Part shown: positions 2 to 50,676 of the stretch, in pieces | Layout: each line of letters begins with the position of its first letter | How positions within the stretch are numbered: position 1 is the stretch's first letter | From: Lactiplantibacillus mudanjiangensis | Lineage (GTDB): Bacteria > Bacillota > Bacilli > Lactobacillales > Lactobacillaceae | DNA length: 64,000 bases | Direction: 5' to 3' | Assembly: GCF_005405385.1 (NCBI RefSeq) | Contig: NZ_BJDY01000004.1 | Span: 62,001 to 126,000, forward strand | Position numbers and translations under genes: made by a program | Notes under the pieces: model-generated | The model's input: the letters and a program-made list of their open reading frames with translations, nothing else | Database searches by the model: none | Told to the model about the DNA's origin: nothing

Positions 2-1540
2 TATCCGTTTACGTTTTTCTTCATTAACCAAGCAAGTAGTATTGTTATGGCTTTCTTACTGATTGGGGTAGCGATGGGAACGGCGGGGCGCGTGAAAAAA
101 GCATTTTGGCCGACAGTGGTGGTGTTGTTAATCGCCATTTTAAATACGGTACGTTGGTTAGTTGTTTATGATGCCATCTCAATGAAGTTTATTATTTTCT
201 TAGTCCTTATTTTGGCTTTCGTTGCGTTATCACACCACGCTTATTATCGAGAACGGTTGGCCTTTTCGTGGGGGCAAACGTTATGGGTGGGGTGTGTCTA
301 TGTCATCACCTTCGTGTTATACACGATTGTCGGGATCTATAACGCCCCACAGATTCATCACCGACATACGGTGCCAGACGCGCTGTTCTTCCCGTCACAG
401 AAACTATGGCTCTTTGGAGTGATTGGATTAGTGATCGCGGCGATGATCTTAGTTGCCATGGAACGCTACTTTGCCAGTGGTCATAACGAACGGTTAGGAC
501 AAAAGCTTGAAGCAGCACGTGTCCAGCAATTGATTGCTCAATTTGGTGGTAATGAAATTTCACATTTAGCCTTTTTGAATGATAAGCTGGTCTACTACTA
601 TCAAGTGGATGGCGTCGATCAAATCGCCTTCCTGTATCAAATTAAGGCCGATAAGCTGGTTTTAATGGGTGAACCGTTTGGTAACCAGGACCAGCTGCAG
701 CCGGCCTTAGAACAGCTGATGGACGATGCTGACAGTGATGGTTATTCACTAGTCTTTTATGAAATCAACGAAACCTTGACGATGCGGTTGCACGAAATGG
801 GCTTTGATTTTATTAAGACTGGTGAAGAAGGGCATGTTGATCTAGAAAAATTCACTTTAGCCGGTAAACGACTAAGGGCTGAACGGGCGTTAATGAATAA
901 ATTTAGCCGTGATCAATATGAATTTGCGATCTTACAACCACCATTTAGCGCTGAAACGATGGCCGAGTTAAAAGCGGTCTCAGATAGCTGGTTGGCTGGT
1001 GAAACGGAAAAAGGGTTCTCATTAGGCTTTTTTGATGAGACTTATTTGAATGCAGCACCAGTCGCAGTCGTTTACAGTCCAGCACATGAGATTGTGGCGT
1101 TTGCCAATGTAATGCCACAGGGGAATGATCAAGTAACGTCAATTGATCTGATGCGTTCTAGCAAGGCGGCCCCATCAGGAATTATGGATACGGTTTTTGT
1201 TCATTTGTTTGAACAAGCTCGAACAGATGGCTATCGCTACTTTAATATGGGCATGGCGCCACTGGCCGGTGTTGGGGTGTCACGATACAGTTTTATCCAA
1301 GAAAAGATTGCCCATTTGATTTATGAATATGGGTATCAACTGTATGGTTTCCAGGGGTTACGCTCGTATAAGGAAAAATACGTGACTGATTGGGCACCGA
1401 AATACATTGCTTATCGGAAACGAAATTCGTTGATCTTCACTATTTTGCAATTGTTACAAGTGGTGAATACCCGGGTAAAGAAACCACATCAACGAACGAT
1501 ATTAATGCCGAAATGGCTTCAAAATGGTACCCGTCATTAA
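2..1540 (+). CDS. mprF: MprF C-terminal part: phosphatidylglycerol lysyltransferase, 5'-truncated by the window edge
   Basis: The frame is open to the first base of the window, so the start lies outside; about 512 codons remain. MprF adds lysine from Lys-tRNA to phosphatidylglycerol on the inner membrane face and flips the product, which lowers the negative surface charge and protects against cationic peptides. The visible part begins with several hydrophobic membrane segments (to about residue 140 of this piece), followed by the soluble synthase domain (DUF2156 type) with the family-like stretch YFNMGMAPLAGVG near the C-terminus. The full family is about 850 residues, so the N-terminal flippase half is missing here. 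The TAA stop lies inside the 8 bp target duplication of the mobile element that follows, so no native terminator separates the gene from that element. Confidence 0.88.
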   Translation, partial: YPFTFFFINQASSIVMAFLLIGVAMGTAGRVKKAFWPTVVVLLIAILNTVRWLVVYDAISMKFIIFLVLILAFVALSHHAYYRERLAFSWGQTLWVGCVYVITFVLYTIVGIYNAPQIHHRHTVPDALFFPSQKLWLFGVIGLVIAAMILVAMERYFASGHNERLGQKLEAARVQQLIAQFGGNEISHLAFLNDKLVYYYQVDGVDQIAFLYQIKADKLVLMGEPFGNQDQLQPALEQLMDDADSDGYSLVFYEINETLTMRLHEMGFDFIKTGEEGHVDLEKFTLAGKRLRAERALMNKFSRDQYEFAILQPPFSAETMAELKAVSDSWLAGETEKGFSLGFFDETYLNAAPVAVVYSPAHEIVAFANVMPQGNDQVTSIDLMRSSKAAPSGIMDTVFVHLFEQARTDGYRYFNMGMAPLAGVGVSRYSFIQEKIAHLIYEYGYQLYGFQGLRSYKEKYVTDWAPKYIAYRKRNSLIFTILQLLQVVNTRVKKPHQRTILMPKWLQNGTRH

Positions 1541-1541
1541 T

Positions 1542-2051
1542 CTAAAGCTTGAAAGCTAGGTTTTAGCAATATTCGTTGATATGATAAGCATTCATCGATC
1601 AAAACTAGTCATACTTTCCACCTACCGTTCGCCCACATTGAGCCGGAACGCTGTGGGCGGACCGGTTCAGCCAAAAAGCGGTCTGAACCGTCGTTTTGAA
1701 CCACTAACCCCGTGTTTCAAAAACGCCAGGATGAGCTCAATGTGGAGGCACTCTCGGTTATGATAGTGATTGCTAATTAACTAGCATCCGCATGATAACC
1801 GGAGTCAGCCAGTGATGGCGCCGGCCGTGAAAATATCGTAAGTCCGGGTGCTTTTCCCGGGCTTACGATATGGACGACTTTTGAGATTAGCGGTTTGGGC
1901 TAGGCTTAAAAGCGAGGTGGAAGCCCGTATTTTGGCTGGAGCCGGTCCCCGCAGCCGGCAGAATCGCTGGCTGGCGTAGGTGACAAATTTAATCCAACTT
2001 AAGTCAATGTTGCTAAAGTTTCGACTAATACATTTAACTTTCAACCTTTAG
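1542..2051 (+). mobile_element. MITE-like non-coding mobile element, copy 1 (510 bp)
   Basis: The element begins CTAAAGCTTGAAAG and ends with CTTTCAACCTTTAG, which are inverted repeats matching at 13 of 14 positions. It is flanked by a perfect 8 bp direct repeat, TCATTAAT, at 1534-1541 and 2052-2059, the signature of transposition. It has no transposase; the short open frames inside it are not shared with copy 2 at 45721-46269, which lies in reverse orientation and matches along its whole length despite clear divergence. The left duplication contains the mprF stop codon, so the insertion landed exactly at the end of mprF. Eight-bp duplications are known for several IS families, but these ends match none that I recognise. 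Confidence 0.88.
1621..1984 (+). ncRNA. Candidate structured RNA inside mobile element copy 1
   Basis: Seen helices: 1633-1643 with 1735-1745 (11 bp); 1663-1670 with 1683-1690 (8 bp); 1692-1700 with 1716-1725 (one bulge); 1804-1816 with 1963-1975 (13 bp, two G-U); 1820-1825 with 1954-1959 (6 bp); 1833-1848 with 1856-1871 (16 bp, one G-U); and a hairpin at about 1878-1910. In copy 2 several of these helices have different bases but still pair. The wobbles are G-U on the plus strand and would be A-C mismatches on the minus strand, which favours the plus strand as the RNA. Transcription is not shown; read-through from mprF would produce this strand. Confidence 0.55.
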
Positions 2052-2060
2052 TCATTAATT

Positions 2061-2104
2061 AAAAAAACAGGCCTGATACTCCAGCGTGAGTATCGGGCCT
2101 GTTT
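2061..2104 (-). terminator. Intrinsic terminator of the LOG-family gene
   Basis: The hairpin arms AACAGGCCTGATACTC and GAGTATCGGGCCTGTT pair, with a run of seven T on the minus strand (A at 2061-2067). It lies just downstream of the minus-strand gene ending at 2109. Confidence 0.85.
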
Positions 2105-2108
2105 GAGT

Positions 2109-2684
2109 TTAGTTAGTATATTTCATGGGTAAAACATGGTTGAACTGGTCGAAGCCAGTAAAGATTTCATCGAGGTCATGACCGTCAATAAATAAATCAA
2201 GATTTTCGACTGGCGCAAAGCCCATTTTGGTACTATTTTGAAGCATATCAATTAATGGATCATAAAAGCCATTGATATTATATAACGCAATTGGTTTTTG
2301 ATGAATATCCATCTGACTCCAAGAAAGCATTTGTAAGAATTCCTCGAAAGTGCCAAAACCACCAGGTAGCACAATAAAGGCATCGGCTAAATGTAACATT
2401 TTTTCTTTGCGTTCGGTCATGGTCTTGGTTTCCACGAAGGTCGTGACATCTTTAAGCGCTAAGCCCCGTTCGACTAAGAAGTGGGGAATAATTCCAATGA
2501 CGCGGCCTTGAGCGGCTAAAGTCGCCGTGGCAACTTTGCCCATTAGACCATGATCGCCACCGCCATAGATCAATTGGTAATCATTGTCGGCCAAATATTG
2601 ACCTAATTCAACAGTCTTAGTTGAAAATTCAGGATCGAGACCAGAGTTGGAACCACAAAAAACACAAATATTATGAATTGACAT
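2109..2684 (-). CDS. LOG-family protein (TIGR00730), probable nucleoside 5'-monophosphate phosphoribohydrolase
   Basis: This 191-residue protein has the Rossmann-like opening ICVFCGSN, the glycine stretch IYGGGDHGLMG near residues 40-50, and the diagnostic motif PGGFGTFEE (PGGxGTxxE) near residues 107-115. These belong to the Lonely Guy family, which releases the base from nucleoside monophosphates; in plants this activates cytokinins, while the bacterial role is unclear. It follows nrdF on the same strand but a terminator at 2722-2752 separates them, and an AAAGGTG ribosome site precedes the ATG. The family is secure; the physiological substrate is not. Confidence 0.88.
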   Translation of the reverse strand: MSIHNICVFCGSNSGLDPEFSTKTVELGQYLADNDYQLIYGGGDHGLMGKVATATLAAQGRVIGIIPHFLVERGLALKDVTTFVETKTMTERKEKMLHLADAFIVLPGGFGTFEEFLQMLSWSQMDIHQKPIALYNINGFYDPLIDMLQNSTKMGFAPVENLDLFIDGHDLDEIFTGFDQFNHVLPMKYTN

Positions 2685-7667: not shown

Positions 7668-7715
7668 GCGGATGGCTAGCATTATTCACTTAAATCATGT
7701 ATTATAGTATTTGCC

Positions 7716-7810
7716 GTAAGGCCTTAAGGCAAGGGTGGATTTACGAATCGTGTCAGGTCCGGAAGGAAGCAGCACTAAGTTTGCTTCATCTTGTGCCTTA
7801 AGTTTTTATG
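7716..7810 (+). ncRNA. ffs: Signal recognition particle RNA (small bacterial type)
   Basis: The universally conserved SRP apical sequence GTCAGGTCCGGAAGGAAGCA is present at about 7751-7770. The flanks pair into a long rod: CTTAAGGCAAG (about 7723-7733) with CTTGTGCCTTAAG (about 7790-7802). A TATAGT -10 box lies at 7703-7708, giving a start near 7715. The size is about 95 nt, without an Alu domain. The RNA binds Ffh to target membrane proteins. It sits between tadA and dnaX, as in related genomes. The ends are estimated to within a few bases. Confidence 0.93.
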
Positions 7811-7819
7811 AAATGTAAC

Positions 7820-45711: not shown

Positions 45712-45720
45712 GTTGATCAG

Positions 45721-46269
45721 CTAAAGGTTGAAACTTACTCATCGTTAGTAGGACCTTGATAGAGCTGACTTGAATACCCTTAAATTAGTCACCTCCGGCT
45801 GTCAGTGATTCTGCCAGCTGTGGGGACCGATTTCAGCCAAAAGGCGGGCTTCAATCTCGCTTGAAAGTCTAGCAAACACCACTAGTCTTTCAAGACGTCC
45901 GCGTCGTAAGTCCGACAAAAACACCCGGACAACGACGTTTTCACGGCTGGCGCCATCACTGACAGCCAGCGATTAAGCGACGATCATTGTTTAAAACAAT
46001 GATTTGGTCACAAATCTAGCCGAGAGTGAGTCTAATCTGGGCCCAGTCGTGGGTGTTTCTTAGCGGTTTTTGCTTAGAAACTGGCGCTTTTGAAACGCCG
46101 ACCTTTGCGGTTCAAAACGAAATCCAAGACCGAACTTTGGCTTGGATTGTCCATCCACAGCGTTTCGGCCCGGATTGGGCGAGCAGTAGGTGGCAAGTTT
46201 CACTATTTTTGACCGTTAAATGACTGTCCTATCAATGGTTAAGTCTAAAATTCAGCTTTCAAACTTTAG
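45721..46269 (-). mobile_element. MITE-like non-coding mobile element, copy 2 (549 bp, inverted)
   Basis: Read on the minus strand it begins CTAAAGTTTGAAAGCT and ends AGTTTCAACCTTTAG, matching the ends of copy 1. A perfect 8 bp direct repeat, TTGATCAG, flanks it at 45713-45720 and 46270-46277, different from the duplication of copy 1, so the two are independent insertions. The interior aligns with copy 1 throughout, with an extra hairpin (AATCATTGTTT/AAACAATGAT) and other differences that make it 39 bp longer. It lies between the phoR terminator and the PhoP boxes of the pst operon without touching either. Confidence 0.88.
45788..46191 (-). ncRNA. Candidate structured RNA inside mobile element copy 2
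   Basis: The helices of copy 1 recur with different bases. AATCCAAG (rc of 46141-46148) pairs with CTTGGATT (rc of 46121-46128). GGCTGTCAGTGAT (rc of 45955-45967) pairs perfectly with the rc of 45797-45809. CTTGAAAG pairs with CTTTCAAG in the second hairpin of the core. Unpaired stretches such as GTGATGGCGCC, GAAGCCCG, TTTTGGCTG and CGGTCCCC are conserved in sequence. The candidate strand is minus, opposite to the neighbouring genes, so it would need its own promoter. Confidence 0.55.
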
Positions 46270-46309
46270 TTGATCAGTTTTACGCCGTATCAGTCAAAAA
46301 ATTATGACC

Positions 46310-46363: not shown

Positions 46364-46396
46364 ATATTTTGAGCAATGGGTAGGAGGTATTTTGTT

Positions 46397-49099: not shown

Positions 49100-49909
49100 A
49101 TGCAAAATGAAAATATGGAAACCACGCAACGTAATATCATGCATTTTGATCCAAAAGCGCATGAAATTGCATTATCGACAGAAGATTTACGTGTCTTTTA
49201 CGGGCAGTCAGAAGCGATTTCTGAAGGTGATCTACAATTTGAACGGTATAAGATTAGCTCATTAATTGGCCCTTCTGGTTCGGGTAAATCAACCTTTCTA
49301 CGGTCCTTAAATCGGATGAATGACCGTATTGCGACTGTTAAAGGGAAGATTATGTATCGCGGTCTAGACATCAATAGTGACGAAGTAGATGTGTATGAAA
49401 TGCGTCGTCATATTGGAATGGTCTTTCAACGACCTAATCCATTTGCAAAGTCGATTTATGAAAATATCGCATTCGCTTTACGACAACGTGGGTTAAATGA
49501 TAAACACAAATTGGATGAAATTGTCGAGACTTCGCTACGACAAGCCGCCATGTGGGATCAGGTCAAGGATGACTTGAATAAAAGTGCATTGGCCTTATCT
49601 GGTGGGCAACAGCAGCGATTATGCATTGCACGTGCGATTGCGGTTAAACCAGATATCTTGTTATTAGATGAACCAGCCAGTGCGTTGGACCCGGTCTCAA
49701 CGAGTCAAGTTGAAGATACGCTGCTGGAATTAAAACAAAATTACACCATCATTATTGTGACACATAACATGCAACAAGCCTCACGGATTAGTGACTATAC
49801 GGCCTTCTTTAACTTAGGTAAGGTCTTGGAATATGCAGAAACTGGCGATATTTTCACCAATCCAAAGGTAGATTTAACCAATGATTACATTTCTGGGAAT
49901 TTTGGCTAG
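49100..49909 (+). CDS. pstB: Phosphate ABC transporter ATP-binding protein, first copy
   Basis: This ABC ATPase of 269 residues has [41 protein letters not shown] and [11 protein letters not shown]. The N-terminus is about 18 residues longer than that of the second copy. GGAGGG lies upstream. Two consecutive, clearly different pstB genes are usual in lactic acid bacteria and may form a heterodimer. Confidence 0.95.
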
Positions 49910-49920
49910 GAGGTCTGTTA

Positions 49921-50676
49921 ATGAGCCCAATTTTAACTACTGAAAACTTATCCTTATTTTATGGTAAGAAAGAAGCCTTAAAAGGCATTAACATGAGTTT
50001 TGAAAAGACTGGAATTACGGCATTAATTGGTCCTTCTGGTTGTGGTAAATCAACGTTCTTACGCTGTTTGAACCGGATGAATGACTTAATCCCAGGAGTC
50101 ACCATCACAGGTGATGTTAATTTTAACGGTCACAATATTTATGCGCCCACGACAGATACCGTGCAATTACGTAAAGAAATCGGCATGGTTTTTCAACAAC
50201 CTAATCCTTTTCCATTCTCGATCTATGAAAATGTGGTTTATGGGTTACGATTGGCTGGTGTTCGTGATAAAGAACAATTAGACGCGGCCGTTGAAAAAAG
50301 TTTAAAGCAGGCAGCTATCTGGGATGAAGTTAAAGATCGCTTGCATGCCAATGCATTATCTTTATCTGGTGGACAACAGCAGCGGGTTTGTATCGCGCGT
50401 GTTTTAGCGGTTGAACCTGATATTATCTTATTAGATGAAGCGACGAGTGCGCTTGATCCGGTTTCGAGTCATATGATTGAAATGACCCTATTGAATTTAC
50501 GTCATGATTACACTATCATTACTGTTACGCATAACATGCAACAGGCTTCACGAATTTCTGATCGAACAGCCTTTTTCTTGAATGGAGAGTTAATCGAGGC
50601 TAACGATACCAAGCAGATTTTCATGAATCCGGTAAGACAAGAAACCAATGACTACATTTCAGGACGATTTGGTTAG
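49921..50676 (+). CDS. pstB: Phosphate ABC transporter ATP-binding protein, second copy
   Basis: This 251-residue ABC ATPase has [41 protein letters not shown] and [10 protein letters not shown]. Note DEATSALD where the first copy has DEPASALD; both keep the catalytic glutamate. TAGGAGG precedes the ATG. It lies 11 nt after the first pstB. Confidence 0.95.

Follow-up and report, generated by a model that had tools for sequence, protein, structure and literature searches.

A small mobile DNA of lactic acid bacteria with two outward-facing structured-RNA units

Positions 1542 to 2051 of the window (the whole 64,000-nucleotide [nt] stretch of Lactiplantibacillus mudanjiangensis contig NZ_BJDY01000004.1 that was analyzed) are one copy of a non-autonomous DNA transposon of 510 bp. 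The element is a small mobile DNA of lactic acid bacteria containing two structured-RNA units that face outward, and both its anatomy and the structural constraint upon it are well supported. Judging from the sequence comparisons below, we read the transposon as carrying a new class of structured RNA, whose role would most likely be in cis, at the 3' ends of genes and between genes. An elaborate fold, compensatory changes at nearly every pair and more than 100 copies in one genome are normally the mark of a functional RNA. No paper describing the element was found in the searches made of open-access PMC.

RESULTS

Anatomy of the element and its target sites

Two covariance models were used: R1, of the element's right half (173 positions), was built from 40 copies in the source genome, and R2, a second model, used 58 diverse arms taken from 43 chosen loci. 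The copy of the element at the start of the window consists of the following parts.

1534-1541, unstranded: left target-site duplication TCATTAAT, identical to the 8 bp at 2052-2059
1542-1555, plus strand: left terminal inverted repeat CTAAAGCTTGAAAG (consensus CTAAAGGTTGAAAG), from the end alignment of copies
1619-1753 (approximate limits), minus strand: left unit, from an R2 match to the minus strand at 1659-1727 (43 bits) and the 40-copy alignment
1755-1801, unstranded: spacer hairpin CGGTTAT..ATAACCG between both units, from the consensus fold of copies
1804-1975, plus strand: right (main) unit, the 172-nt structured RNA domain (R2, 163.7 bits; covariation; fold z = -6.8)
2038-2051, minus strand: right terminal inverted repeat, whose minus strand matches CTAAAGGTTGAAAG exactly
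2052-2059, unstranded: right target-site duplication TCATTAAT, the same 8 bp as at 1534-1541

A search of the source genome with window positions 1500 to 2200 returned at least 42 matches (40 of the 229 candidates were scored), and 40 copies were taken with their flanks for the analysis of ends, folding and neighboring genes. The 14-mer CTAAAGGTTGAAAG, allowing one mismatch, occurs at 132 sites in this genome, as opposed to none for a reversed control pattern. Both ends are present with at most 2 mismatches in 13 positions in 28 of the 40 copies, which thus possess the terminal inverted repeats of MITEs, and these two-ended copies range from 460 to 556 bp in length. Target-site duplications of 7 to 9 bp with at most one mismatch flank 24 of the 28, again as in MITEs, compared with 10 of 756 when ends were paired across different copies; the duplications are 7 bp long in 10 copies, 8 bp in 12 and 9 bp in 2, and they vary in sequence from copy to copy. 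In 20 of the 28 (a raw count), five consecutive T on the left, or five consecutive A on the right, occur within 30 nt, as beside terminators.

The longest open reading frame (ORF) touching any copy is about 92 amino acids (aa), so that the element, as in MITEs, is short and contains no transposase ORF. A coding role was considered and rejected, since only 16 of 40 copies have an open minus-strand ORF of 60 to 92 aa at their right end. Elements with the same ends occur in other Lactiplantibacillus genomes (in a search seeded with the ends), and duplications matching at 7 or more of 8 positions flank 7 copies in genome G020 and 1 in G011, with weaker ones elsewhere in the genus. Genome G000 also contains shorter elements of about 190 to 380 bp (e.g., at C2:496414-496706 and C3:33117-33435) with the same terminal repeats and large internal deletions.

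A second copy lies on the opposite strand of the window, immediately after a hairpin that, with its T run, resembles a terminator; a gene at 46376 lies beyond the copy.

45713-45720, unstranded: target-site duplication TTGATCAG, from the flanking sequence
45721-46269, minus strand: copy 2 of the element, from model matches and terminal repeats
45797-45967, minus strand: main RNA domain of copy 2 (R2, 154.7 bits)
46030-46180, plus strand: secondary, inverted unit of copy 2 (R2, 74.7 bits), containing the AATCCAAG/CTTGGATT stem of the earlier note at 46121-46148
46270-46277, unstranded: target-site duplication TTGATCAG, from the flanking sequence

Copy 2 is absent from the R1 matches listed for the source genome. 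Beyond it, positions 49710-49809 and 50477-50576 form a direct repeat (72%) in two adjoining ORFs.

Two inverted units of one domain

The earlier note on this sequence had proposed selection on a structured RNA within a mobile element, and that much of its reading is supported. Those of its stems that were examined lie where it placed them, with CGGTTCAG at 1663-1670 pairing with CTGAACCG at 1683-1690, 1804-1816 pairing with 1963-1975 and a hairpin at 1833-1871, and the perfect 13-bp stem that it described in copy 2 is likewise present (GGCTGTCAGTGAT/ATCACTGACAGCC). The stem at 1663-1690, however, belongs to the inverted left unit, and it is on the minus strand that the motif at its apex is conserved.

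The left unit of the window copy is related to the 172-nt domain but is inverted and has diverged from it, and it is without an internal stretch that is present in most copies. At many loci, a second and usually weaker match occurs on the opposite strand beside the first, and the left units of many other species keep conserved loops of their own on that strand. Among the 106 loci with a match, and after the removal of repeated loci, 50 of 54 arm pairs are in the "-+" orientation and lie within 600 nt of each other (53 of 57 before removal), and two more of the 54 are "-+" but further apart. The proposal of a single RNA of roughly 360 to 400 nt is therefore not supported: because arm pairs are inverted and the left half is such a unit, the apparent 360-nt RNA is two head-to-head units of one domain.

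Fold and covariation

The right unit (1804-1975, plus strand) has a predicted folding energy of -92.7 kcal/mol (z = -6.8), which none of 200 shuffled sequences equaled; the minus strand of this region also folds well, if less so (-73.6 kcal/mol, z = -5.9). The fold comprises a variable stem of considerable length, one internal loop and a junction from which three hairpins extend. Among the 40 copies of the source genome, 98.2% of cells are paired, against a shuffled mean of 96.9, and two-sided changes occur at 10 of 62 pairs (shuffled mean, 6.0), amounting to 46 such cells (shuffled mean, 16.1). Further pair types in these copies were no more numerous than in shuffles (38 versus 37.4).

Covariation is also present across genera. 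Alignment A5 brings together 58 arms drawn from many genera; two-sided changes are seen at 61 of its 65 pairs, 93.6% of its cells are paired, and its covariation score of 0.668 exceeds both that of shuffled alignments (0.185) and those of structures slid by 1 to 3 columns (0.067 to 0.106). A5 was fitted to R1 and is hence biased towards the R1 structure, yet three P6 pairs that lie outside R1 covary nonetheless. Conservation extends to positions that do not form standard pairs: there is an A.G mismatch in P5 in 53 of 58 arms, an A.G in P6 in 41 of the 54 arms with letters there and a U.U in P3 in 49 of 58, and the unpaired bases G132 and A133 are retained in 56 and 52 of 58 arms, respectively. 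The domain is thus conserved as a structure, through compensatory changes, non-canonical A.G mismatches and junction bases. Genome G019 (L190-L209) contains a shorter version without the P6 hairpin, at 77 matching places.

The Rfam search that the earlier note had suggested yielded no match to Rfam 15 at the gathering level over the element, the sole such match in the window being the bacterial small SRP RNA elsewhere, at 7715-7812 (59 bits). Permissive scans produced sub-threshold matches only, three around the window element and one in 12 loci of relatives.

RNA or DNA: strand evidence

G-U wobbles, which had been offered as evidence for RNA, exceed A-C cells in the right arms of the source genome (137 versus 25, 38 copies), so that this part of the argument holds there. 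It hardly extends to the left arms of the same 38 copies, which when read on the same strand contain 68 G-U and 44 A-C cells, with about 36 of the 68 contributed by one constant pair; the lack of a clear plus-strand excess in the left arms counts against the best explanation. When counted as distinct pair types, the right-arm bias in the source genome is not significant (28 versus 18, P = 0.18). Over many genomes, 105 main arms contain 326 G-U and 68 A-C cells (4.8:1), and 53 secondary arms, each taken in its own orientation, contain 136 and 56, in each case within a model-based alignment that somewhat favors G-U. This asymmetry favors an RNA that would be read outward from each unit. Watson-Crick pairs nevertheless dominate (3193, versus 187 G-U, of 3380 standard pairs), and because G-U pairs are so few, a constraint on pairing at the DNA level is still conceivable, which counts against the best explanation.

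Copy number and host range

All 133 candidates scored with R1 in the source genome match, placing the domain at no fewer than 133 sites. R1 matches 18 of 21 Lactiplantibacillus genomes, 13 of them with at least 59 matches and five with 4 to 24, and three genomes have no match. That three genomes of the genus are empty and five have only 4 to 24 matches indicates that the host has no general need for the domain. At E <= 1e-4, the family sample yields matches in 66 of 301 Lactobacillaceae genomes, which represent 11 of its 40 genera. R2 matches 32 of 395 genomes of the order, and among 398 genomes drawn from the phylum, the source genome alone matches. These matches count arms, not elements, and the copy numbers are lower bounds, with up to 133 candidates scored per genome in the genus, 9 in the family and 7 in the order and phylum. 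The window element, queried in the version of its own species, had no match in either the plasmid or the phage collection.

Genomic setting, mobility and retention

Among the 39 of 40 copies in the source genome with both neighbors called, the flanking genes are convergent for 20, tandem for 16 and divergent for 3. By eye, 6 of 54 gene pairs in the window are convergent (ORFs of at least 120 aa), and the copies differ from this baseline at P = 7e-10. At 71 loci of other genomes, the numbers are 39 convergent, 28 tandem and 4 divergent, a count that leaves out source-genome and streptococcal loci and drops 45 whose flanking ORF was not within 400 nt. In tandem gaps, the main arm shows no sense preference in either the source genome (6 sense versus 10 antisense) or other genomes (13 versus 15), and this counts against the best explanation. 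A role as a cis-regulator of downstream genes is not favored, given the rarity of divergent gaps (3 of 39 and 4 of 71) and the lack of an orientation preference.

The window element has on its left a protein with a phosphatidylglycerol lysyltransferase C-terminal domain and on its right a LOG-type "lysine decarboxylase" family protein. A neighbor-gene search yielded 14 relatives, 13 of them from Lactiplantibacillus and one from an uncultured Lactobacillus. Inspection by eye of the gap that follows the LOG-family gene showed that 8 of the 14 (L160, L161, L163, L164, L165, L167, L169 and L171) retain the convergent neighbor and have no element, that L162 and L170 have an element at a different insertion point and that L159, L166, L168 and L172 have other neighbors. 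Insertion therefore differs between species. A search for an autonomous transposon or transposase with the same ends found none: no exact terminal-repeat pair in G020 is 0.7 to 4 kb apart or further apart than about 550 bp, and the close end pairs in 17 G000 stretches delimit single elements of about 190 to 550 bp, none of which encloses a long ORF.

The domain remains complete in copies with decayed transposon ends. Six copies (L057, L071, L072, L074, L075 and L077) have three or more mismatches at both ends yet contain the full domain, with R1 scores of 181 to 210 bits, and one of them, L072, is the best R1 match of the source genome; all six were among the 40 copies behind R1. Copies within G018, G004/G016 and G019 resemble one another far more closely in the core than outside it. 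For the best-scoring 20 of the 77 matching copies in G019, mean pairwise identity over twenty columns is 0.89 to 1.0 in the core, 0.80 to 0.85 at its edges and 0.50 to 0.75 elsewhere in the repeat; hairpin loops account for much of the variation within the core. Either purifying selection or gene conversion would produce such homogeneity, and the possibility of gene conversion, like the choice of the best-scoring copies, counts against the best explanation.

Streptococcal relatives

Outside Lactobacillaceae, R2 has one match in each of 6 genomes of genus g8 (apparent Streptococcus) and in one genome of each of two other families. One lone match in another family of the order (L249 3082-3230, genome G571; 44.9 bits) aligns with its P5 region enlarged and its P3 hairpin missing. 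A sample of 40 genomes from g8 contains 8 that match, one of them seen before. The g8 members are single units in sense, situated between what we take, from similarity, to be purD and purE (11 loci) and rmlC and rmlB (2 loci), and the pur and rml settings may each represent a single ancestral event. In one streptococcal pur copy (L269, near 1560-1600), the P5 hairpin is the inversion of that of its relatives (GAAGCCCAAGGTCTTC versus GAAGACCTTGGGCTTC), as if flipped.

The Rfam family RF02616 (SSRC8_2) matches part of the g8 pur members at 35 to 39 bits, below its gathering cut-off of 72, and the element was accordingly not assigned to it. The likeness is confined to a 58-position core (model positions 152 to 209) common to the streptococcal single-copy relatives, including a GAGAC..GGCUC-type hairpin. 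Unlike these relatives, RF02616 loci are not found by R2 (0 of 30), so that the link to SSRC8 is distant and runs through the pur members. RF02616 has no match in the source genome (0 of 1), but 14 control genomes were equally silent; the family does match in genus g8, in 244 of 284 genomes at E <= 0.001 (31 above the cut-off) and often at several places, with at most 6 candidates scored per genome. Although described as a single small RNA (sRNA), RF02616 looks like a dispersed repeat family (L271-L300). SSRC8 is transcribed in Streptococcus pyogenes, as detected by Northern blotting and circular RACE according to an excerpt of PMC3675131.

DISCUSSION

The transposon carries two outward 172-nt domains of a structured-RNA class spread across Lactobacillaceae; the reading that adds to this a cis role at 3' ends is one to which we assign about an even chance. 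Action in cis, in 3' or intercistronic RNA, is favored by the bias in position, by the occurrence in sense within operons and by the presence of the domain without intact ends. A DDE-type transposase, supplied in trans and working on the terminal repeats, would have spread the element, which would settle at, or survive best at, the 3' ends of transcription units. The domain could then work in cis within read-through RNA, where two outward copies would provide one unit in sense for either insertion orientation. Its effect would be to shape mRNA 3' ends or intercistronic RNA through protection, processing or the blocking of antisense read-through, in a REP/BIME-like manner, and the single copies in streptococcal operons could be domesticated examples. 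A broader version is more tentative, and we hold it to be possible rather than probable: the class would extend across Lactobacillales with SSRC8 as a fragment of it, and the transposon would have amplified it to more than 100 copies per genome as a standard cis module, under selection at many loci and independent of orientation through the outward double copy.

The structural evidence can also be read at the level of DNA, with the units folding as cruciforms or single-stranded hairpins into transposon end complexes that a transposase or host protein reads, without any RNA function. The inversion of the units, like transposon ends, in 50 of 54 arm pairs, the dominance of Watson-Crick pairs (3193 versus 187 G-U) and a reverse strand that also folds far beyond shuffles (z = -5.9) all agree with this, but the excess of G-U over A-C in main arms (4.8:1, and 137:25 in the right arms of the source genome), the conserved A.G and junction bases, the domain's retention in copies without recognizable ends and the single units found by R2 in apparent Streptococcus operons do not, and we consider it unlikely. 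Structural constraint of any kind would be absent if the element were simply a MITE like others, folded only because its sequence is palindromic. MITEs often form stem-loops (excerpt of PMC10969869) and the element sits mainly at harmless places, but the two-sided changes found across genera at 61 of 65 pairs, measured against slid and shuffled controls, and the conserved mismatches contradict this view and leave it scarcely credible.

If the domain does act as RNA, it could instead be the gene of a trans-acting sRNA spread by the transposon, each copy yielding a discrete sRNA. The resemblance of the streptococcal relatives to part of SSRC8, which in the excerpt of PMC3675131 was detected by Northern blotting and mapped by circular RACE in S. 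pyogenes, is in keeping with such a gene, whereas the position of the pur and rml members inside operons and the low similarity outside the core in G018, G004/G016 and G019 are not, making it quite unlikely. It could also belong to the transposition machinery, as a guide, scaffold or cis-acting RNA of a missing autonomous element, given that the domain and the element ends co-occur in several Lactiplantibacillus genomes. We regard this as very unlikely, since the target duplications and terminal repeats fit ordinary DDE transposition, exact end pairs 0.7 to 4 kb apart are lacking in G020 and no long ORF is enclosed in the G000 stretches.

Returning to the proposed action in cis, activity of the domain at mRNA ends would mean that mobile elements install the same RNA module at many operons. 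The repeats of Lactobacillaceae may moreover be joined with a streptococcal sRNA described as a single regulator, and the very many natural variants render structure and function directly testable.

Comparison with known repeat systems

REP/BIME sequences are paired inverted units that are intergenic, occupy 3' ends and intercistronic sites and are not known to have terminal repeats with target duplications. The present element shares with them the paired inverted units, the intergenic location and the 3'-end and intercistronic sites. REP units, however, are palindromic, and their length is 20 to 40 bp (abstract of PMC3733652), whereas the unit here is 172 nt with an internal junction, and the element was therefore not placed among REP/BIME sequences.

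The Correia, RUP and ERIC MITEs are, like this element, non-coding repeats, and copies of Correia and ERIC can affect how mRNA is processed or degraded (PMC10969869, in excerpt). None of the three is described in that excerpt as having a covarying, junction-containing RNA domain in inverted duplicate.

The bcr1-bcr18 repeats of the Bacillus cereus group are interspersed and high in copy number, with up to 130 copies of bcr1; bcr1-3 are MITE-like, bcr10 and bcr18 have a conserved RNA structure, and about half of bcr copies are transcribed, many of them in untranslated regions (excerpts of PMC6542083 and PMC3446304). The present element resembles them, so far as those excerpts describe them, in being an interspersed, high-copy, MITE-like repeat, some members of the bcr series likewise being structured RNAs. 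It is not a bcr1-type repeat: matches occur in 66 of 301 Lactobacillaceae genomes and the duplications vary in sequence. The same excerpts restrict bcr1 to the B. cereus group and connect the mobility of bcr repeats with TTTAT motifs, whereas this element has varied duplications of 7 to 9 bp, a double-unit architecture and a range of 11 Lactobacillaceae genera.
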